8,812 nucleotides of DNA from Deltaproteobacteria bacterium RBG_13_61_14 (GCA_001797815.1 MGQK01000053.1:109597-118408), one strand, 5' to 3'. Positions 468 through 7,888 are shown, counted from the stretch's first letter. A program made the numbers and translations. Notes: generated from the letters alone by a model not told the origin.

Positions 468-1898
468 CTACAGCCTCCCCACTTCCCGGATGAACAGGTC
501 CATCTGCCGCCGGCGGATGCTCTCCGGAAACTCGATCGGATACTGCCCGCTGAAGCAGGCGTCGCAATACCCGAGTCCCGAAGGCTCCACCGCCTGCCAC
601 AAGCCGGCCAGGGAAAGGTAGCCGAGCGAGTCGGCGCCGATGAACTCCCGGATCTTCTCGACCTGGCCGTCGCGGGTGTTGTAGATCAGCTCTTCGCGGG
701 TCGGGGTGTCAATGCCGTAGAAGCAGGAGCCGGCAATGGGCGGCGAGCTGATCCGCATGTGCACCTCCCGGGCCCCGCCCTGCTCCCGGAGCATGCTCAC
801 GATCTTGCGGGAGGTGGTGCCGCGCACGATCGAGTCGTCCACCACCACCACCCTTTTGCCCTGCAAGACCTCGCGCACCGCGTTGAGCTTGACCTTCACC
901 CCGAAATGCCGGATGGATTGGCTCGGCTCGATAAAGGTCCGGCCCACGTAATGGTTGCGGATCAACCCTTCCTCAAAGGTCAGGCCCGAAGCCCGGGCAA
1001 AGCCCATGGCCGCGGGCCGGCCCGAATCAGGCACCCCGATCACGATGTCCGCTCTCGCCGGCTGCTCCTTGGCCAGTTGCTCGCCCAGGCGGATCCGGGT
1101 CTGATAAACATTGCGGCCGAAGACCGTGGAGTCGGGCCGGGCAAAGTAAATGTGCTCGAAAATGCAGGCCTTGGCCGGCCGGGGCGCGAACGGCTTGAAC
1201 GACTCGATCCCGTGGGCGTCCACCACGATCACCTCGCCCGGCTCGATCTCCCGCTCGTAGTGCGCGCCGATCAGGTCAAGGGCGCAGGTTTCCGAGGCGA
1301 TCACCACCGTCTCGCCCAGCCGGCCCAGCACCAGGGGCCGGATCCCGTTTGGGTCGCGGGCCGCGGCGAGCTGGCTTTCAGTGAGGAAGACCAGGCAATA
1401 GGAGCCTTGGATCTGGTCCAGGGCCGTGGTGATCTTGTCAATCAGCCGGCCGGAGCGCGCCGAGGCCATCAGGTGCACGATCACCTCGGTGTCCATGGTG
1501 GTCTGGAAAATGGCCCCGTGCTCTTCCAGCTCTTCCCGCAGCTCCCGGGCATTGACCAGGTTGCCGTTGTGAGCCACCGCCAGCCGGCCTCGGCTGGAAT
1601 CCATGGCAAAGGGCTGGGCGTTCTTGAGGAGTGAGGCGCCGGTGGTGGAGTAGCGGACGTGGCCGATGGCCATGTGCCCGGGCAGTTGCAGCAGGATCTC
1701 GTGCTTGAAAATGTCCTGGACCAGGCCCATGGCCCGGTGCGAGCTCATGAACCTCCCGTTGGAAGAGACGATGCCGCCCGATTCCTGGCCCCGGTGCTGC
1801 AGCGCATACAGGGCCAGGTAAGCCAGCTTGGCCGCCTCCGGGTGGCCGTAAATCCCCACGACCCCGCACTCTTCTCTCCACTCATCCACCGCGCTCAA
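468..1898 (-). CDS. purF: Amidophosphoribosyltransferase (glutamine PRPP amidotransferase)
   Basis: It catalyses the first committed step of de novo purine synthesis: PRPP plus glutamine gives 5-phosphoribosylamine. The protein is 476 aa, normal for the family. The N-terminal Ntn-hydrolase glutaminase domain has its nucleophile at Cys11 ([10 protein letters not shown]) behind a short propeptide, with [10 protein letters not shown] at 33-42 and AHNGNLVN at 109-116. The C-terminal phosphoribosyltransferase domain has the PRPP loop [13 protein letters not shown] (350-362). Cys245, Cys392 and the Cys445-x2-Cys448 pair match the 4Fe-4S ligands of the Bacillus-type enzyme, so an oxygen-sensitive cluster is expected. 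The start is uncertain: TTG at 1898 has an AGGAG almost touching it, while GTG at 1889 has the same AGGAG at about 10 nt and would give a 7-residue propeptide. It is followed after 3 nt by the DUF1638 gene, so the two probably share a transcript. A likely promoter lies at 1934-1961. Confidence 0.97.
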
Positions 1899-1933
1899 AC
1901 TCCTGGAAGGATTCCTGAGAAACTCCCTCCTTT

Positions 1934-1961
1934 AGTATAGCCCATTCCACCACTTTTCCAA
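1934..1961 (-). promoter_or_regulatory. Putative sigma-70-type promoter of purF
   Basis: On the minus strand TTGGAA (1961-1956, four of six matches to TTGACA) is followed after 16 bp by TATACT (1939-1934, five of six matches to TATAAT). Transcription would start near 1927, about 30 nt before the purF start. A strong AAAGGAGGG stretch lies just downstream but is too far from purF to serve it as a ribosome binding site. I see no recognisable purine-repressor operator. Confidence 0.5.
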
Positions 1962-1963
1962 CT

Positions 1964-2000
1964 TAAAAACAAGCCTCCGCCCACTTCGAAAAGCGGGCGG
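1964..2000 (-). terminator. Weak terminator-like hairpin upstream of purF
   Basis: CCGCCC (1977-1982) pairs with GGGCGG (1995-2000), with three further inner pairs around a small loop. Read on the minus strand, the stem is followed after 7 nt by TTTTT (1969-1965). That spacing is long for an intrinsic terminator, so the call is weak. It would stop minus-strand readthrough from the repeat region before the purF promoter. Confidence 0.3.
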
Positions 2001-2050
2001 GAAGGGTGAAGGATGAAGATAACCTTGAACCTGAACTTGAACGGATAAGA
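2001..2050. repeat. Composite heptamer and hexamer tandem array
   Basis: Three 7-bp units of the form GAAGGRT (2001-2021, the last diverged to GAAGATA) are followed by three 6-bp units, TTGAAC, CTGAAC and TTGAAC (2025-2042). Read on the minus strand the hexamers are GTTCAA/GTTCAG preceded by TATCC and followed by AAGG, closely resembling the plus-strand hexamer array at 4286-4311. Confidence 0.75.
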
Positions 2051-2081
2051 TTTCACGCCAAGGCGCAAAGCCGCCAAGATA
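2051..2081. repeat. Octamer repeat, copy 1 (TTTCACG plus CAAAG units)
   Basis: TTTCACG is followed by three 8-bp units, CCAAGGCG, CAAAGCCG and CCAAGATA. The same architecture and leading TTTCACG recur at 4177-4207, so this is a dispersed repeat type and not a chance run. Confidence 0.7.
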
Positions 2082-2101
2082 ATTTTTCACCACAGAGACA
2101 C

Positions 2102-2153
2102 CCCTCGGCCTGAGCTCCATTCGGCCCGAGCTCATGGCCGAGGGCGGGCCGAA
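2102..2153. repeat. Two interleaved inverted repeats interrupting a CACAGAGA-type repeat
   Basis: CCCTCGGCC (2102-2110) pairs with GGCCGAGGG (2136-2144), and TTCGGCCC (2120-2127) pairs with GGGCCGAA (2146-2153). The order is a-b-a'-b', so either one hairpin at a time or a pseudoknot could form. The segment sits between ACCACAGAGACACC and GCAGAGAGCACAGG, as if inserted into a CACAGAGA-type repeat. It shares the motif GAGCTCAYGGCCGA with the 80-bp element at 2857-2939 and may be a diverged relative. Confidence 0.6.
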
Positions 2154-2233
2154 GGCAGAGAGCACAGGGGAGGAAGGGAAAAACTAACCATTAAGGAACC
2201 AAGGCTCCAAAAGGGGGAGAGAAAGAAATTATC

Positions 2234-2267
2234 CACGAAAAGACACGAAGGGACACGAATAAGCACG
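2234..2267. repeat. 10-bp tandem array, CACGAAnnnn units
   Basis: Three units of 10 bp each begin CACGAA (2234, 2244, 2254), followed by a partial fourth (CACG at 2264). The rest of each unit varies. I see no coding role. Confidence 0.7.
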
Positions 2268-2277
2268 GTCCACTCTC

Positions 2278-2307
2278 TTAAAAAACTGCAACATTTCTCC
2301 ATATAAT
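2278..2307 (+). promoter_or_regulatory. Promoter-like site with perfect TATAAT
   Basis: TTAAAA (2278-2283, four of six matches) is followed after 18 bp by a perfect TATAAT (2302-2307) in an AT-rich pocket. It reads rightward into repeats, with an ATG at 2319 that opens an unconvincing ORF. It could drive a small RNA, or be chance in AT-rich DNA. Confidence 0.3.
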
Positions 2308-2355
2308 AAGGGAAGTAAATGAACTGGGCAAAGACAAAATCAAGGGCCGTCCTCA

Positions 2356-2383
2356 TTGATATAACCTATTGTATTTACATAAT
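2356..2383 (+). promoter_or_regulatory. Second promoter-like site
   Basis: TTGATA (2356-2361), 16 bp, CATAAT (2378-2383). A hairpin-capable segment follows at 2394-2427 (GCTG/CAGC outer pairs, CCC/GGG and TGGC/GCCA inner pairs) without a U-tract. No gene follows on this strand for 800 bp, so its meaning is unclear. Confidence 0.25.
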
Positions 2384-2552
2384 TTTTCTGTGTGCTGCCC
2401 TTGGCCGTGTGCGCCAGGGACCGCAGCTTAAAAAGGACAAAAAATCGCGTTTTCGGGCCAATGTTTCCATTTCTGTAAAGCCCCGCTTCACATTTTCTTC
2501 CTTTTCTTCCAATTCCCCTCAACTCCTCAGTCTTTTCCGAGAGTTATCTCCC

Positions 2553-2582
2553 CGACATACAACATACGGCATACGACATACC
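2553..2582. repeat. Heptamer array A (CGACATA, four units)
   Basis: Four consecutive 7-bp units: CGACATA at 2553 and 2574, with variants CAACATA (2560) and CGGCATA (2567). Two related units (TTACATA, CGACATA) recur at 5695-5708 just after the rel stop codon. Confidence 0.85.
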
Positions 2583-2599
2583 CTCTTCCAACTTCCCCC

Positions 2600-2683
2600 C
2601 ATTTTGCACGCCAACCACCCCATCCTGCACGGCAACCACCCCATCCTGCTCAGCAACCACCCCATCCAACGCGGCAACCACCC
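2600..2683. repeat. 21-bp tandem array, four units
   Basis: Four 21-bp units start at 2600, 2621, 2642 and 2663. Each begins CAT and ends with CAACCACCC; the first has CATTTT and the others CATCC. The middle six to eight bases vary. A partial fifth start follows at 2684. The period is three times 7, so the array reads as heptapeptide repeats in open frames on both strands, but neither reading frame looks like a real protein. Confidence 0.9.
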
Positions 2684-2758
2684 CAGGGTTCCGGCCTGGG
2701 GACCTCTACTCCAAGCACTGTGCACTGCTTCAGAGGTGTCAAGGTCTCAGGGGAATCC

Positions 2759-2786
2759 GTTGACGGTTGGCGGCTTGCAGTTGGCG
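2759..2786. repeat. Heptamer array B (GTTGRCG, four units)
   Basis: Four 7-bp units: GTTGACG, GTTGGCG (at 2766 and 2780) and the variant GCTTGCA (2773). The same unit type recurs in array D at 4049-4076. Confidence 0.85.
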
Positions 2787-2794
2787 TAAGGTAG

Positions 2795-2814
2795 GGGCGC
2801 GATTCATCGCGCCC
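2795..2814. repeat. Perfect 9-bp hairpin palindrome
   Basis: GGGCGCGAT (2795-2803) and ATCGCGCCC (2806-2814) are exact inverted repeats with a 2-bp centre. It resembles the small palindromic intergenic repeats common in bacterial genomes. There is no U-tract, so it is not a convincing terminator. Confidence 0.75.
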
Positions 2815-2856
2815 AGGATGCGCCGGCCAGCTCGCCCACGCATAACTAAAATGTAG

Positions 2857-2939
2857 CCGCGACCGTTCGGCTGCATTCGACAAGCTCAGGCCCCGAGATT
2901 GCCGAGGGGAGCTCACGGCCGAAGCCGCCCCGGTCGCGG
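2857..2939 (+). repeat. 80-bp palindromic element, copy 1
   Basis: The unit is bounded by a perfect 9-bp inverted repeat, CCGCGACCG (2857-2865) and CGGTCGCGG (2931-2939), with internal inverted pieces (TTCGGC and GCCGAA). The 80 bp at 2851-2930 match the reverse complement of 5606-5685 at 78 positions. No ORF is encoded, so if mobile it would need a transposase acting in trans. Confidence 0.85.
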
Positions 2940-2960
2940 AGCCAAGAAAAGAAAAACGAT

Positions 2961-2990
2961 CCACAGATTCCGCAGATTTCACAGATTTTC
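2961..2990. repeat. 10-bp tandem array with CAGATT core
   Basis: Three 10-bp units each carry CAGATT at roughly the same phase (2961-2990). A similar AATCTGTGAAAA, in the other orientation, occurs near 4160. Confidence 0.6.
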
Positions 2991-3000
2991 TTGTTCTGAA

Positions 3001-3035
3001 GCCTAAAGCCCAAAGCCTAATGCCTAATGCCTCCT
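3001..3035. repeat. Heptamer array C (GCCTAAT, four to five units)
   Basis: Units at 3001 (GCCTAAA), 3008 (GCCCAAA), 3015 and 3022 (GCCTAAT), with a decayed fifth (GCCTCCT) at 3029. It ends 8 bp before the -35 hexamer of the promoter for the 3174 gene. Confidence 0.85.
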
Positions 3036-3042
3036 CCGGTCC

Positions 3043-3071
3043 TTGACAACCCTACTCCATCATGCAATAAT
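3043..3071 (+). promoter_or_regulatory. Strong sigma-70-like promoter for the ORF at 3174
   Basis: A perfect TTGACA (3043-3048) is separated by 17 bp from AATAAT (3066-3071, five of six). Transcription would start near 3078, leaving a leader of about 96 nt. A 7-bp hairpin, TCCGGCC (3073-3079) with GGCCGGA (3086-3092), would lie at the 5' end of the transcript. Confidence 0.6.
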
Positions 3072-3130
3072 CTCCGGCCATGGAAGGCCGGATCAAACCC
3101 GAAGCCAAAAGCGAGCTGAACATTACAATG

Positions 3131-3149
3131 AGTATGGTGTCCCCAAATT
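3131..3149. repeat. Left inverted repeat flanking the 3174 ORF
   Basis: ATGGTGTCCCC (3134-3144), extended imperfectly to AGTATGGTGTCCCCAAATT, is exactly inverted relative to GGGGACACCAT at 3968-3978. It lies in the leader of the gene, about 30 bp before its start codon. Confidence 0.75.
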
Positions 3150-3173
3150 TCCCGCACTCCTCAAGGCAAGAAG

Positions 3174-3941
3174 ATGCAAGGAATCAATTTTCAGAGAACC
3201 TACCGGCTGGATCAGGCCTACAATCAAGTTAAACACCAAGCCGCAAAATTTTTGAAGGATTATCTCCACGATCCGGGCCTGTTCATTTTTGATGATCTCA
3301 GCACAAGCGTTACCTTTACCTCAGAGCGTCTGATCCCCCTTCGCGCCAGCGGCCGGCCTTGCGTGATGCTGATCTTCTCCAATCCCCATCCCCATTCGAT
3401 TCGGCAAGGCATGTTCCTGTCCCCCAACCGCCGCAACCTGCCCAATTCATTTTGGCAAACAATGTCAGAAGCGGGGTGGTTCAATATTTACGCAAGCAAT
3501 TTGGCCCCGGCACAACTTCGAGACATTTTTCTTCGAGTCGAATACGACAGCCCCTTCGAGCTGATTTTTTATTGCTATTATGCTTTCCCCTCTGATTTTC
3601 CCGAAGACCTTCCCAAGATTTTTAGCCAGGAGTTTTTTCGGAATGTTATTGAGCTGGCCGCAAAAAAGGAATTTCTCAAAACCTTGACCCGAGAAAAAGT
3701 CCGGGCGGTAGTCACCTTTAACAAAGGGGTATTCAACCGCATCGCAAAAAAGAAAATAACTCGCTATCTCAAAATTCTGAACGACCGCGGTTGCATTCGA
3801 AGCGAAATTGCAGAATTACAAGGGATGGTCCCTATCCATTTAACTTATCCCACCGGATGGCGCTACCACCGCAATGCCCGTGCTCTCAAACAAGATAATC
3901 TCAAACAGATCAAGCAGATGATTCTCGATAACCTCACTTAA
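3174..3941 (+). CDS. Uncharacterised protein, possibly uracil-DNA-glycosylase-like
   Basis: I do not firmly recognise this 255-aa protein. It is soluble, without signal peptide or membrane segment. Notable stretches are VMLIFSNPHPHSIRQGMFLS (64-83), SFWQTMSEAGWFNIY (92-106), VVTFNKGVFN (179-188) and HLTYPTGWRYHRN (222-234). The Asn-Pro-His-Pro stretch near a Gly-x-Phe-Leu-Ser, a hydrophobic strand ending FNKG and a C-terminal YPTG-His pattern loosely recall uracil-DNA-glycosylase superfamily proteins; this is a guess from memory of motif layout. ATG 3174 is the only good start after the in-frame TGA at 3129; AAGG lies 7 nt upstream. The gene opposes all its neighbours, is visibly richer in A and T, and has its own promoter (3043-3071). 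The flanking inverted repeats at 3131-3149 and 3962-3986 suggest acquisition as a unit. Real gene: likely. Function: unknown. Confidence 0.7.
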   Translation: MQGINFQRTYRLDQAYNQVKHQAAKFLKDYLHDPGLFIFDDLSTSVTFTSERLIPLRASGRPCVMLIFSNPHPHSIRQGMFLSPNRRNLPNSFWQTMSEAGWFNIYASNLAPAQLRDIFLRVEYDSPFELIFYCYYAFPSDFPEDLPKIFSQEFFRNVIELAAKKEFLKTLTREKVRAVVTFNKGVFNRIAKKKITRYLKILNDRGCIRSEIAELQGMVPIHLTYPTGWRYHRNARALKQDNLKQIKQMILDNLT

Positions 3942-3961
3942 TCCGACAGCTTGAATTCGTG

Positions 3962-3986
3962 AATTCGGGGGACACCATCCTTAATT
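3962..3986. repeat. Right inverted repeat flanking the 3174 ORF
   Basis: GGGGACACCAT (3968-3978) inside AATTC-GGGGGACACCAT-CCTTAATT is the exact 11-bp inverse of 3134-3144. It begins about 20 bp after the stop codon, just past a GAATTCGTGAATTC direct repeat. Confidence 0.75.
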
Positions 3987-4022
3987 CAGTTGATTAGGCA
4001 TTAAACGGGAAATAAAAAGGAT

Positions 4023-4038
4023 GACAGGCAGGAATGCC
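4023..4038. repeat. Partial copy of the GACAGGCA palindrome
   Basis: GACAGGCAGGAATGCC matches the left three quarters of the hairpin at 4106-4125 with one substitution and then diverges, so only the inner GGCA/TGCC stem remains. Confidence 0.55.
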
Positions 4039-4048
4039 GTTTAAGAAG

Positions 4049-4076
4049 GTTGACGGTTGGCAGTTGACGGTTGGCG
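4049..4076. repeat. Heptamer array D (GTTGRCR, four units)
   Basis: Four 7-bp units alternate GTTGACG (4049, 4063) with GTTGGCA (4056) and GTTGGCG (4070). They are the same unit type as array B at 2759-2786, 1.3 kb away and in the same orientation. Confidence 0.85.
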
Positions 4077-4105
4077 GAAAGCAGTGGAAAGTGATTCAAA
4101 TGGTT

Positions 4106-4125
4106 GACAGGCAAGAATGCCTGTC
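4106..4125. repeat. Perfect 8-bp hairpin palindrome GACAGGCA/TGCCTGTC
   Basis: GACAGGCA (4106-4113) and TGCCTGTC (4118-4125) are exact inverted repeats around AGAA, followed by CCCCCTT. There is no U-tract. It looks like a short dispersed palindromic repeat; a partial copy lies at 4023-4038. Confidence 0.75.
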
Positions 4126-4176
4126 CCCCTTCCAGATTTAGAAGTTTGAGCTTTTCTGAAAATCTGTGAAAAGGGG

Positions 4177-4207
4177 TTTCACGCCAAGTCGCAAAGGAGC
4201 AAAGGAA
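4177..4207. repeat. Octamer repeat, copy 2
   Basis: TTTCACG followed by three 8-bp units (CCAAGTCG, CAAAGGAG, CAAAGGAA). It has the same layout as 2051-2081. Confidence 0.7.
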
Positions 4208-4251
4208 AAGAGGAAATTGTTCCAAGTTCAGCTTGAAGAGGTTTTCCCCAC

Positions 4252-4279
4252 CTGCGACCTACGACCTACGACCTACGAA
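4252..4279. repeat. Heptamer array E (CTACGAC, four units)
   Basis: CTGCGAC at 4252, CTACGAC at 4259 and 4266, CTACGAA at 4273. Six bases after it the hexamer array at 4286 begins. Confidence 0.9.
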
Positions 4280-4285
4280 GATTCC

Positions 4286-4311
4286 GTTCACGTTCACGTT
4301 CACGTTCAAGG
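4286..4311. repeat. Hexamer array (GTTCAC, four units)
   Basis: Three exact GTTCAC units (4286, 4292, 4298) and a fourth GTTCAA (4304) followed by GG. It parallels the minus-strand hexamers at 2025-2042, including the closing GTTCAAGG. Confidence 0.9.
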
Positions 4312-4329
4312 GTAATAAATTTCTTCCCC

Positions 4330-4357
4330 TGCCTACTGCCTACTATCTACTGCCTAC
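4330..4357. repeat. Heptamer array F (TGCCTAC, four units)
   Basis: TGCCTAC at 4330, 4337 and 4351, with TATCTAC at 4344. The array overlaps the end of the isomerase remnant: the stop codon and last residues of that fragment (4343-4357) are made of array sequence. Confidence 0.9.
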
Positions 4358-4434
4358 TGTTTTCAGATGCCTTTCCACCATCTCGATCCGATCATTGCCC
4401 CAGAACATCTCATCGCCCACGAAAAGGAATTCCC
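4343..4434 (-). pseudogene. C-terminal remnant of a 2-hydroxychromene-2-carboxylate isomerase-like gene
   Basis: On the minus strand this reads EFLFVGDEMFWGNDRIEMVE, then RHLKTVGSR and a TAG at 4345-4343. It matches the C-terminal end of the intact gene at 4983-5576 (FFVGEEMFWGNDRIEMVERF). The central 38 bp (4371-4408) are identical to 5008-5045. Outside that block the aligned codons differ only at third positions (GTG/GTC, GAT/GAG, GAG/GAA), so the fragment came from a coding allele that had diverged under selection. It has no start codon and abuts the brnA stop. Its last codons run into heptamer array F. It is best explained as a leftover of a recombination or insertion event that placed brnTA beside the intact gene. 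Confidence 0.8.
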
Positions 4435-4662
4435 TTACTCATACTTGGAGGCGTAGAGTTCCAGGACCCGGCGGATCATTTTTTGGTAGGGGGTTTTGTG
4501 TTTTTTCGCCTGTTTTTTGAAGAAGGCCACGCTGGTTTTGCTCAGGTTGAGGGTGACTTTGACGGCGTCGGGTTTGAGGACGAGTTGTTCCGGCGGAGGC
4601 AGGAAATCCCGGACCACTTCCATGGCCAGGGGCTTATCGGTGTAGCGAATTTTCTTTTTCAT
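4435..4662 (-). CDS. brnA: BrnA-family (ribbon-helix-helix) antitoxin
   Basis: This 75-aa antitoxin should bind and neutralise the BrnT toxin encoded just upstream and, as in characterised BrnTA pairs, repress their shared promoter. The first 30 residues (MKKKIRYTDKPLAMEVVRDF and on) would be the toxin-contacting part. The rest, VTLNLSKTSVAFFKKQAKKH and the PYQKMIRRVLELYASKYE tail, is the DNA-binding ribbon-helix-helix domain seen in this antitoxin family. ATG 4662 has an AAGGAAGGGAAG ribosome binding site just upstream and lies inside the toxin gene, overlapping its last 29 bp, so translation is probably coupled. The stop codon at 4435 directly abuts the isomerase remnant. Family assignment is by sequence pattern; close CopG-like antitoxins are the alternative name. 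Confidence 0.88.
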   Translation of the reverse strand: MKKKIRYTDKPLAMEVVRDFLPPPEQLVLKPDAVKVTLNLSKTSVAFFKKQAKKHKTPYQKMIRRVLELYASKYE

Positions 4663-4921
4663 AAACTTCCCTTCCTTTCCGCCAATAGCCGGCGCCGATA
4701 ATCCGGATCACATCTTCACGATAAGTGAAGCGGACCGTAAGAATCCCGCCCTCGACTTCGCCCAGGCAGTAATAGCGAGGCTCAGCTCCGCTGTGCTTCA
4801 GGTCCCGCGCGATCACACGCCGCGGGTCCAAAAAGGCCATTTGGGCCAGGGCGAAGGCAACGCCGTGCTTGCGCCGATTGGCGGCGTCTTTTTTCTCGTC
4901 CCATTCAAAGCGAACGCCCAT
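4634..4921 (-). CDS. brnT: BrnT-family toxin (DUF497), predicted ribonuclease
   Basis: It is predicted to be the toxin of a type II toxin-antitoxin pair; BrnT proteins have a RelE-like fold and block translation by cutting RNA. The 95-aa protein has the family signature FEWDEKKDAANRRKHGVAF at 4-22, an FLDP segment at 30-33, then EPRYYCLGEVEGGILTVRFT (47-66), REDVIRIIGAG and the C-terminal WRKGREVYE. The Lys-His-Gly and the later Arg and Glu residues, which matter in the family, are present, so the toxin looks intact. ATG 4921 is the only in-frame start after a TAA about 30 bp upstream; GAAGG touches it, so initiation may be inefficient. It is the first gene of the pair, 61 bp after the isomerase stop, with operator-like repeats in that gap. 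Confidence 0.9.
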   Translation of the reverse strand: MGVRFEWDEKKDAANRRKHGVAFALAQMAFLDPRRVIARDLKHSGAEPRYYCLGEVEGGILTVRFTYREDVIRIIGAGYWRKGREVYEKENSLHR

Positions 4922-4930
4922 CCTTCTGCC

Positions 4931-4980
4931 CGGGCGCTGATATTATCCATATAATTAACCATACAACTATCGGGCGCTAA
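4931..4980 (-). promoter_or_regulatory. Putative brnTA promoter and operator repeats
   Basis: Two copies of CGGGCGCT (4931-4938, 4971-4978) frame two copies of ATTAWCCATA (4942-4951 and 4954-4963, nine of ten matching) spaced 12 bp apart, about one helical turn. On the minus strand this gives GATAAT as a possible -10 element without a clear -35. Paired sites at helical-turn spacing suit cooperative binding by a ribbon-helix-helix antitoxin, which is inference. Confidence 0.45.
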
Positions 4981-4982
4981 TG

Positions 4983-5576
4983 TCAAGCCTTTCGGCCCTG
5001 AAGAAATCTTTCCACCATCTCGATCCGATCATTGCCCCAGAACATTTCCTCGCCGACGAAGAAGGTCGGCGCGCCGAAAGCGCCGCGGCGGACCGCCTCT
5101 TCGGTATTGGCCCGGAGCTTGTCCTTGATGGCCTGGTCTTCGATCCGGGCCGCGATCTTGGCGCCGGGCAGACCCAGGCTGTCGGCTATTTTTTGGAGGA
5201 CGGTTGTCTGGCTCAGGTCCTGGCCTTCGGTCCAATAGGCCTGGAAGAGCGCGGCCGAGAGTTGGAGGAACTGGCCCAGCTCTTCCGCAGCCAGGGCCGC
5301 GCGGAGCGCCGGGACCGAGCGGAGCGGAAAGAGGCTCGGCCACTGGAACGGCACCTGATAAAATTCGGCCCAGCGTTTGAGGTCGGTAATCATGTATTTG
5401 GCTTTGGCCGGGATGGAGGCGGTCATGGCGTTGCCGGCCTCTTTGAAGACATGGCCCAGGGCAAATGGCCGCCAGATCACCGGCGCCCCGGTCCGCTTTT
5501 CCAGGCCCTCCATCCGGGTGCTGGCCAGGTAGGAGTAGGGACTGGCGAAATCGTAGAAGAATTCGATTTGCTTCAT
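4983..5576 (-). CDS. 2-hydroxychromene-2-carboxylate isomerase family protein (DsbA-fold, kappa-GST-like)
   Basis: Members of this thioredoxin-fold family include the glutathione-dependent isomerase of naphthalene breakdown and many uncharacterised relatives; no degradation genes lie nearby, so the substrate here is unknown. The protein is 197 aa, normal for the family. It starts MKQIEFFYDFASPYSYLAS, with Ser12 in SPYS where DsbA has its redox cysteine, so it should not act as a thiol oxidase. The helical insertion spans roughly 55-160 (VIWRPFALGHVFK marks its start), the cis-proline loop is GAPTFFVG, and the tail EMFWGNDRIEMVERFL is typical. ATG 5576 is preferred to an upstream start at 5648: it has AAAGGA about 8 nt upstream, fits the family start, and the extra 24 residues would be translated repeat sequence. 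Its last codons are duplicated beyond brnTA at 4371-4408. Confidence 0.92.
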   Translation of the reverse strand: MKQIEFFYDFASPYSYLASTRMEGLEKRTGAPVIWRPFALGHVFKEAGNAMTASIPAKAKYMITDLKRWAEFYQVPFQWPSLFPLRSVPALRAALAAEELGQFLQLSAALFQAYWTEGQDLSQTTVLQKIADSLGLPGAKIAARIEDQAIKDKLRANTEEAVRRGAFGAPTFFVGEEMFWGNDRIEMVERFLQGRKA

Positions 5577-5594
5577 GGATCGTTTCCTTTCATT

Positions 5595-5679
5595 CCGCGA
5601 CTGAAGGGCGGCTTCGGCCGAGAGCTCCCCTCGGCAATCTCGGGGCATGAGCTTGTCGAATGCAGCCGAACGGTCGCGG
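5595..5679 (-). repeat. 80-bp palindromic element, copy 2 (inverted)
   Basis: It is the reverse-complement copy of 2857-2939, with 78 of 80 positions identical over 5606-5685. Its terminal inverted repeat is CCGCGAC (5595-5601) and CGGTCGCGG (5671-5679), with 2 extra bases near the left end compared with copy 1. It sits between the rel stop and the isomerase ribosome binding site, so it would be transcribed as a hairpin between the two genes. Confidence 0.85.
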
Positions 5680-5716
5680 CTACATCTCTTTTCCTTACAT
5701 ACGACATACTTTTCCT

Positions 5717-7888
5717 TCAGGCTTTCAGCCGCTCCACCGAGATCACGCCTTCGATTTTTTCCAGCTTCTTGATCATCCGGCGGAGCTGCCCGGCGCTCTT
5801 CACCTCCACCTCAAAGGTGTTGACGGCCTTCTGGTCGTCGGTGGTGCGCACCAGGGCGCGGGAGATGTTGCCGTGGGCTTCGGAGATGGCGCCGCCCATC
5901 TGGGCCAGCAGTCCGGGCCGGTCGGCGCAGAGCACCTCGATGGTGACGGTGCGGATGCCTTTGACCCGCTCGCCCCAGTGCACCGGCAGCAGCCGGTCCG
6001 GGTCGGCTTCGCGCGCGCGGGCGCATTGGGGCCGGTGGACCTCCACCCCCTGGCCCTCCTTGGTAAAGGCCACGATCTCGTCGCCGGGGAGGGGCGAGCA
6101 GCAGGCGCCGAACTCGATCAGCGGATCATCGAAGCCCTGCAGGACCAGTCCGCCCTCCGGGAGGGTCGGCTCGGCCGGGGCCTGGGCCGGGGCTTTGCGT
6201 TTGGCCGAGGGAGGGCCGGCCAGGCGCTGTCTTCGGAGCCGATCGTGGGGGACCATGCGGGCCAGGACCTTGCGGTGGGGGAACTTGCCGTAGCCGATGG
6301 CCTGGAGGAGTTTTTGATGATCGGTGAACTTGAACTGCTTGGCCACCCGGCCGAGCACCCCGCTCTTGATCGCCCGGTCCAGGTGGATGTTGTAGCGGAG
6401 CAAGTCCGCCTCCAGGATCTGCCGGCCCAACTCCTCGCTGCTCCCGACCTCGCGCCCGTGCAGCCAGTGCTGGATCTTGTTGCGGGCCTGGGCGGTCTTG
6501 GCCAGGTCGAGCCAGGCCTTGACCGGGTGGGCGTCGCGGCTGGTGATGATCTCCACCGTCTCCCCGCTCTGCAGGTTGTAGTTGAGCGGGACGATGCGGC
6601 CGTTGACCCGGGCGCCGGCGCATTGGCAGCCGATGGCGCTGTGGATGCTGAAGGCGAAATCAATGGGGGTCGCGCCCTTGGGCAGCTCGCGCAGGTCGCC
6701 TTTGGGGGTGAAGACAAAGACCTCGTCCGGGAACAGGTCGGACTTGACCGACTCCAGGAACTGGTGGGGATCGTGCAACTCCTTTTGCAGCTCGACCAGG
6801 CGCTTGACAAAGCCCAGCGTCTTGTCGTCCGCCTCCGGCGCCAGGGCCCCGCCCTCCTTGTAGCGCCAGTGCGCGGCGATGCCGAATTCCGCCACTAGGT
6901 GCATCTCCTGGGTCCGGATCTGGATCTCCACCCGCTGGCCGCCGGGACCGATCACGGTGGTGTGCAGCGACTGATACATGTTCGGCTTGGGAAGCGCGAT
7001 GTAGTCCTTGATCCGGCCCGGCACCGGCGCCCAGAAGGAGTGGATCACGTAGAGCGCCTCGTAACACTCCCGGATGGTCTGGCAGAGGATGCGGAACGCC
7101 ACCAGGTCGTGAACCTGGTCCAGCGAGAGCTTATGGGTCTCCATCTTGTGGTAGATGCTGTAAAAGGGCTTGTGCCGGCCTTCCACCTGGGCCTCGATCC
7201 CGGCCGCGGCCAGCTTTTGGCCAAGGACCGACTGGACCTCCTCGATCCCGGCCTGCTGGGCCCGGTGGATCTGGGCCACCTGCTTGACCAGCCGGAAATA
7301 GAGGTCGGGCTTGAGAATGCGGAAGCTCAAGTCCTCCAAATCGGACTTGATCCAGTAGATCCCCAGCCGCGACGCCAGGGGCGCGTAAATTTCCAGGGTC
7401 TCTTCCGCCATCCGGAACCGGCGCGCTTCCGGCAAATAGTCAATGGTCCGCATGTTGTGGAGCCGGTCGGCCAGCTTGATCAGGATCACCCGAAGGTCCT
7501 CGGCCATGGCCAGGATCATCTTCCGGAAATTCTCCGCCTGTGCCTGGGGCCGGGAGGCCCGCGAGATCATGCTGATCTTGGTCACCCCGTCCACCAGGCC
7601 GGCGATCTCCTTGCCGAACTCCCGGTGGAGCTCCTCCAGGGTGGTGGAGGAGTCTTCCAGGGTATCGTGGAGCAGGCCCGCGCAAATCCCGGGCGCATTC
7701 AGCCGGAGTTCGGTCAGGATCCCGGCTACTTCCAGGGGATGGGAGAGGTAAGGCAGCCCGGAGGCCCGCAACTGCCCCTTGTGCAGGGTGGCGCTCCAGA
7801 CGTAGGCCTTGTTCACCAGGTCGGCATCGGCCTGCGGGTCGTAAATAAGCAAGCGCTCGATGATCTCGTGGATCCGGATCACCGCCAT
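5717..7888 (-). CDS. rel: Bifunctional (p)ppGpp synthetase/hydrolase, RelA/SpoT family
   Basis: It makes and degrades the alarmone (p)ppGpp in the stringent response. It is 723 aa, full family length. The N-terminal HD hydrolase domain keeps His50, His74-Asp75, Glu78-Asp79 and Asp141 (HDTLED, DRLHNMRT), so hydrolysis should be active. The synthetase domain (about 235-345) has HDLVAFRIL with Asp261, YQSLHTTV at 305-312 and Glu321 in EIQIRT. Arg292-Ile-Lys-Asp295 is the RxKD signature of bifunctional enzymes, not the ExDD of synthetase-only RelA. TGS spans about 388-450, the conserved cysteine region holds ACCSPLPGDEI (595-605), and a C-terminal ACT domain covers about 648-720. In TGS the position often His (GHRC in E. 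coli RelA) is Cys421 (GCQC). ATG 7888 fits the family start but has no clear ribosome binding site; it follows rpoZ by 50 bp, behind a hairpin. Confidence 0.97.
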   Translation of the reverse strand: MAVIRIHEIIERLLIYDPQADADLVNKAYVWSATLHKGQLRASGLPYLSHPLEVAGILTELRLNAPGICAGLLHDTLEDSSTTLEELHREFGKEIAGLVDGVTKISMISRASRPQAQAENFRKMILAMAEDLRVILIKLADRLHNMRTIDYLPEARRFRMAEETLEIYAPLASRLGIYWIKSDLEDLSFRILKPDLYFRLVKQVAQIHRAQQAGIEEVQSVLGQKLAAAGIEAQVEGRHKPFYSIYHKMETHKLSLDQVHDLVAFRILCQTIRECYEALYVIHSFWAPVPGRIKDYIALPKPNMYQSLHTTVIGPGGQRVEIQIRTQEMHLVAEFGIAAHWRYKEGGALAPEADDKTLGFVKRLVELQKELHDPHQFLESVKSDLFPDEVFVFTPKGDLRELPKGATPIDFAFSIHSAIGCQCAGARVNGRIVPLNYNLQSGETVEIITSRDAHPVKAWLDLAKTAQARNKIQHWLHGREVGSSEELGRQILEADLLRYNIHLDRAIKSGVLGRVAKQFKFTDHQKLLQAIGYGKFPHRKVLARMVPHDRLRRQRLAGPPSAKRKAPAQAPAEPTLPEGGLVLQGFDDPLIEFGACCSPLPGDEIVAFTKEGQGVEVHRPQCARAREADPDRLLPVHWGERVKGIRTVTIEVLCADRPGLLAQMGGAISEAHGNISRALVRTTDDQKAVNTFEVEVKSAGQLRRMIKKLEKIEGVISVERLKA

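Follow-up and report, generated by a model that had tools for sequence, protein, structure and literature searches.

Intergenic heptamer arrays of a deltaproteobacterium resemble small unexplained insertions rather than random copying errors

The stretch of DNA analysed here (the window; 8,812 nucleotides, MGQK01000053.1:109597-118408) comes from the 4.74 Mb draft genome of Deltaproteobacteria bacterium RBG_13_61_14; the genomes searched included two order-level relatives and no other member of its genus. Most of its heptamer arrays lie within a long non-coding stretch between purF and a group made up of a BrnTA-like pair, a DsbA-family gene and relA (Table 1). The BrnT toxin gene was recognised in Pfam, and the adjoining BrnA/CopG-like antitoxin scores weakly. 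An ORF sits inside the array-rich stretch and had no match in Pfam, NCBIfam or PDB sequence searches. It is bracketed by an imperfect inverted repeat whose motif is also found at two places near a Y1 transposase gene in locus L288, so a Y1-type element may carry the ORF as cargo.

Several other repeats share the region. The 80-bp inverted repeat on either side of the array-rich stretch is a recent dispersed repeat and is not heptamer-related. The GTAG-led palindrome has relatives that recur across the genome in pairs (GTAGGGGCG...CGCCCCTAC, 8-12 nt apart), and the unit of the 21-bp tandem repeat is three times seven. A separate inverted-pair repeat, built of CACAAAG/GCAAAG words (TTTAACCACCAAGACACAAAG ... 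CTTTGTG..GGTTAAA), was seen at L249:9309, L243:4130 and L228:3524; its interior is of near-constant length (104-108 nt) and its polarity is the opposite of that described below, A/C-rich first. Similar words occur twice in the window.

Table 1. Genes, heptamer arrays and other repeats of the window (positions counted from its first nucleotide; TRF, Tandem Repeats Finder)
Feature	Position	Strand	Form and evidence
purF	468-1898	minus	
Words similar to CACAAAG/GCAAAG	about 2053-2260 and 4179-4206		
Heptamer array, unit CATACGA on +	2553-2581	- (C-rich on +, G-rich strand -)	TRF and consensus; ~4.1 units
21-bp tandem repeat (CCCCATCCTGCACGGCAACCA)	2597-2685		four copies
Degenerate heptamer array, GTTGACG/GTTGGCG (reverse complement CCAACCG)	2759-2786	+ (G-rich)	read from sequence; third unit disrupted
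REP-like palindrome, GTAGGGGCGCGATTCATCGCGCCC	2791-2814		GTAG-led
Inverted repeat, 80 bp (GCCGCGACCGTTCGGCTGCATTCGACAAGCTCAGG...)	2851-2930 and 5606-5685		98% complementary
Heptamer array, CCTAAAG/CCCAAAG/CCTAATG on +	2999-3032	-	TRF; ~4.9 units; 0 in 500 shuffles
Imperfect inverted repeat (ATGGTGTCCCC / GGGGACACCAT)	3131-3159 / 3953-3981		brackets the ORF
ORF	3174-3941		255 aa
Segment complementary to part of the CCTAATG array, TTAGGCATTA	3994-4003		
Heptamer array, GTTGACG/GTTGGCA alternating	4049-4077	+ (G-rich)	TRF (4049-4075); four units
Heptamer array, unit CCTACGA on +	4250-4278	-	TRF; four units
Heptamer array, unit CCTACTG on +	4329-4359	-	TRF; 4.4 units, 31 bp
BrnTA-like pair, DsbA-family gene, relA	4435-7888	minus	
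BrnT toxin gene	in 4435-4921	minus	Pfam 1.5e-22
Two-unit relative, TACATACGACATA	5696-5708	-	read from sequence

All six arrays listed in the initial annotation are present, far above chance. Five were picked up by Tandem Repeats Finder; the sixth, at 2759, is real but degenerate (GTTGACG GTTGGCG GCTTGCA GTTGGCG) and was missed. The arrays at 2759 and 4049 do lie in the opposite, G/T-rich orientation, and the two-unit relative reported after rel is also there. Array lengths of 28-34 bp, corresponding to four units and a partial fifth, agree with the near-constant copy number that had been described. In the region 1900-4434 the three strongest period-7 arrays score at least 12, a level reached by 0.0 arrays per shuffle in 500 dinucleotide shuffles. 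The relatedness of the units, previously presented as a chain of close variants, is modest among these six arrays, since 102 of 5000 letter-shuffles were equally close. A search of positions 1880-5000 against Rfam gave no family above the gathering threshold and one sub-threshold chance match. There is no clean inverted pair of arrays in the window itself, which counts against the insertion reading developed below; the best inverted relation, between the arrays at 4049-4077 and 4329-4359, is weak and G-rich first. The short segment that complements part of the CCTAATG array stands just outside the inverted repeat flanking the ORF and is possibly a split partner of that array, though in an unusual C-rich-first order.

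We sampled 60 stretches of the same genome totalling 1.08 Mb, part arbitrary contigs and part contigs with a hit, so that the sample is not fully random. Period 7 accounted for 100 arrays; the period ranking next had 21, mainly in coding sequence. The excess of heptamer arrays over chance that had been anticipated is therefore found. Indeed, 76 of the 100 are intergenic, with intergenic DNA making up only about 12% of the sample, and no other period yielded more than the eight intergenic arrays of period 8. Array lengths are mostly ~23-32 bp, the commonest being 31; they peak near 30-32 in viral contigs, and loci from other genomes have a mode of 30-32 with a long tail. Once rotation and strand are removed the units fall into 43 classes, and joining classes one change apart places 40 of them in a single component, whereas for letter-shuffled units the largest component averages 7 classes and never exceeds 18. 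Thus, the chain of variants in the window does exist, as one small section of a larger cloud. Likewise, the shared units and near-constant length uphold the view that unrelated slippage events did not produce the arrays. Given their over-representation and mainly intergenic position, they are best read as belonging to the known kind of heptameric intergenic simple-sequence repeats.

The two order-level relatives sampled contain almost no arrays, which likewise weighs against the insertion reading. Arrays of the window's YCAACYG type were found in Microcoleus, Nostoc and Lyngbya, as expected from the likeness to cyanobacterial repeats that had been suggested, and also in Desulfobacterales, Bacteroidetes and others. 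The reversed-unit control for the first degenerate search pattern was not informative, since the unit when reversed coincides in part with rotations of its own family. Five unit classes are shared across phyla against 3.3 expected, which is not significant overall; the other-phylum loci were ascertained with one unit-family pattern, which affects this comparison of vocabularies and not the polarity test described next.

Genome-wide, the arrays have an inverted-pair architecture of fixed polarity that was absent from the initial annotation and is poorly displayed by the window. An inverted partner lies within 150 bp of 43 of 119 arrays, compared with three for a direct partner and four in a control that used the flanks of other arrays. 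About two thirds of the arrays have no detected partner, which again counts against insertion. In 28 of the 29 pairs from the window's own genome the G/T-rich array lies 5' to the A/C-rich one, and the G-rich-first order, scored by G-C skew, prevails by 41:1 in genomes of other phyla and by 62:2 in viral contigs. No polarity rule applies to the non-array inverted repeats of the window's genome (31:25). Because the order is strand-symmetric, the polarity belongs to the element itself and does not reflect the direction of transcription. In the window's genome, paired elements take up almost all of the spacer between co-directional genes; as a rule they start 2-28 bp past one stop codon and end 0-79 bp ahead of the next start, as judged from a simple ORF caller that gave doubtful calls in one other genome (G031). 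Separately, one contig (L206) has apparent phage structural genes, with inverted heptamer pairs (AGGCAGT...ACTGCCT) and other palindromes between many consecutive genes. Integron cassettes were considered for the viral contig with dense hairpins and dropped, given the apparent phage structural genes and the position of the hairpins between genes.

The unit ATTTTGG, common in the window's genome, allowed a comparison between sister species. Three tandem copies occur in 14 of 386 genomes, spread over many families, and the reversed unit in one. In the wider ATTTTNG family both the start and the end phase of the array are fixed and lengths pile up near 31 bp, with a weak signal of shared ancestry from position-specific variants (p about 0.03). 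G031 has 33 matches, most of about 31-37 bp and largely solitary, a further point against insertion. In G278, ~45 copies match an (ATTTTGG)4ATT array over roughly 29-41 bp, many of them in plus-then-minus pairs, of which the clearest have 31-bp arms. The interiors of these pairs measure 84-411 bp and are nearly all mutually unrelated; one, of 411 bp, is single-copy. At four gene junctions occupied in G278, its congener G386 has no element. The spacing between the aligned parts is 18 bp in G386 against ~220 bp in G278 at one junction, 2 against 184 at another and 1 against 227 at a third; at the fourth, G386 has a TAATG stop-start overlap where G278 reads TAA, array, interior, array, ATG. This evidence comes from one genus other than the window's lineage and from one unit type, without an outgroup. 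Because the short forms resemble ordinary overlapping or touching operon junctions, the alignments suggest that gain in G278 is more likely than loss in G386. At one further orthologous site both species have an array pair with different interiors, and at two more the intergenic regions are long in both, and different. The outer flanks of 13 elements revealed no consistent target-site duplication. The earlier proposal of a copied or 'replicating' repeat therefore stands in part, in that sister genomes gain or lose the paired units as wholes.

The reading that we favour, while giving it no more than even weight, is that the arrays mark recurrent non-coding insertions with heptamer-array ends, of which the window holds mostly solitary or decayed members. 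A full element would consist of a G-rich array, a unique interior of ~10-400 bp and an inverted C-rich array, each end being a ~31-bp array of four heptamers and a partial fifth. Such elements would be gained as one unit at gene junctions, often in operons, and their units would then diversify by point change, giving a connected cloud of unit types within one genome. The putative agent would be an enzyme supplied in trans and acting on paired or folded arrays; the polarity, the sharp ends and the gain of units as wholes suggest that it would recognise ends in their entirety. The mostly solitary arrays of the window are probably remnants, and would have originated by the same process as the G278 pairs, in which case the stretch would be a mosaic of decayed or partial members and other dispersed repeats. 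The arrays might also have some effect on mRNA.

The elements have terminal inverted repeats, as MITEs do, and they are present or absent at orthologous sites, whether by gain or by loss. However, target duplication is absent and no interior is common to the copies, which disfavours an ordinary MITE. Mobilisation by Y1/RAYT transposases was considered and rejected; no responsible enzyme was found, arrays being near only one of 19 Y1_Tnp genes. A broader version of the insertion reading, which we regard as unlikely in its full extent, would be a widespread, hitherto undescribed class of bacterial insertion cassettes in which arbitrary short DNA is held between inverted ~31-bp heptamer arrays in an obligatory G-rich-first order, inserted at operon stop/start junctions without target duplication by an enzyme able to read many different heptad ends.

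The main alternative, which needs no mobile element and which we think somewhat unlikely, combines slippage with fold-back: 7-nt slips of the polymerase would create tandem heptamers, and a self-pairing G/T-rich nascent 3' end would fold over and copy itself into inverted arrays, G-rich arm first. Work cited in PMC4679880 and PMC4692102 has put forward a preference of DNA polymerase for 7-nt slippage as the cause of the bacterial heptamer excess. Such a process would account for the polarity, the absent target duplication, the unrelated flanks and the mostly unrelated interiors. It would predict a decaying length distribution, whereas arrays of the ATTTTNG family concentrate near 31 bp and begin and end in a fixed phase. 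Nor is the second arm an exact copy of the first, since the two arms of one element often carry different unit variants, and sister genomes differ by entire array-interior-array units, 160-220 bp at a time. Slippage alone thus fits poorly.

It is improbable that the pairs are selected RNA hairpins, that is, intercistronic stems whose complementarity is maintained because they stabilise operon mRNA, process it in an RNase III-like manner or insulate it. The pairs do lie between co-directional genes, four paired examples have single-strand folding z-scores of -5.3 to -9.6, both arms of one element match even though the unit differs from element to element, and the one orthologous site noted above has kept its array pair with different interiors. 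However, among arm mismatches on the sense strand G-U is no commoner than A-C (13 against 19), solitary arrays have only a weak sense-strand preference (16:9), and only about a third of the arrays are paired at all. An RNA function would also leave the 7-bp period and the polarity unaccounted for.

A role as G-quadruplex elements, in which four units would supply four G-runs and so explain both copy number and G-rich polarity, appears very unlikely. Quadruplex formation has been proposed for GGGAATC in Xanthomonas and GGGGAYT in Nostoc, and Xanthomonas is reported to have G-rich heptamers in convergent pairs (PMC4692102). At least four GG runs are present in most arrays of G278 (24 of 29) and G031 (20 of 26), whereas in the window's genome no more than 31 of 84 have four, with two or fewer in 35. 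Moreover, families of the GTATATC type, which have no G-runs, still follow the pairing. Finally, hardly any weight can be given to the proposed ~28-bp binding platform for a single regulator or nucleoid protein: constant length and period would suit it, and tandem heptad operators such as the sites of the ribbon-helix-helix omega repressor are known, but 43 unit classes in one genome and a third of the arrays being arms of inverted pairs do not support it, the pairs occupy tight operon spacers and not upstream regions, and their polarity would go unexplained.

Reports of heptamer excess between bacterial genes go back to 2007, and the guess usually made at its cause is polymerase slippage. The ~31-bp length, the pairs of a single polarity across phyla and the presence or absence between sister species turn a vague statistical excess into a definite object, one with ends, an orientation and empty sites, whose mechanism can now be tested. 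If the arrays are mobile elements, they would be a source of new intergenic DNA within operons that had not been set apart before.

Literature searches with the array strings returned unrelated papers only. We did not find in the literature a single genome with a connected cloud of dozens of heptamer units, a ~31-bp array length common to several phyla, the polarity stated as a general rule, or element-free sister junctions. Several known systems nevertheless share individual features with the arrays. MITEs and REP/REPIN sequences are also small non-coding intergenic insertions with inverted ends; in the present elements target duplication, a shared interior and a tie to RAYT genes are all absent. 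The TAACTGA repeats of Beggiatoaceae are similar in being short intergenic heptamer sets (2-6 copies) with a patchy distribution across phyla (PMC4679880). They differ in that related heptamers are rarely or never repeated and the sets are mostly forward, upstream of start codons (PMC4679880), whereas the units found here form a cloud of relatives and do not clearly prefer one strand. The STRR sequences of cyanobacteria are likewise head-to-tail heptamers between genes, but belong to a different phylum and are rarely paired in the loci seen here. Geobacter metallireducens has 'four tandem heptanucleotide' elements of GGGACCG in 49 copies, and class 3 sites of five tandem MTYCTGA drawn as opposite-strand pairs, so that a fixed number of four or five tandem heptamers is common to both systems (PMC2700814). 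However, each Geobacter class has one unit, and the sites are read as regulatory RNA or regulator-binding sites, without presence/absence evidence (PMC2700814). The GGGAATC repeats of Xanthomonas and GGGGAYT repeats of Nostoc resemble the present arrays in their period of 7 and their dispersed, mainly intergenic distribution, and Xanthomonas has ~70 convergent pairs per genome, once on the plus and once on the minus strand (PMC4692102), which is the polarity found here (28:1 in the window's genome and 41:1 in others). Within a genome those repeats are all of one unit type, in longer arrays that can reach 14 or 26 units, and they have G-quadruplex potential (PMC4692102), whereas the arrays described here comprise at least 43 unit types in a cloud, measure ~31 bp, include many units without G-runs and are present or absent as whole elements.
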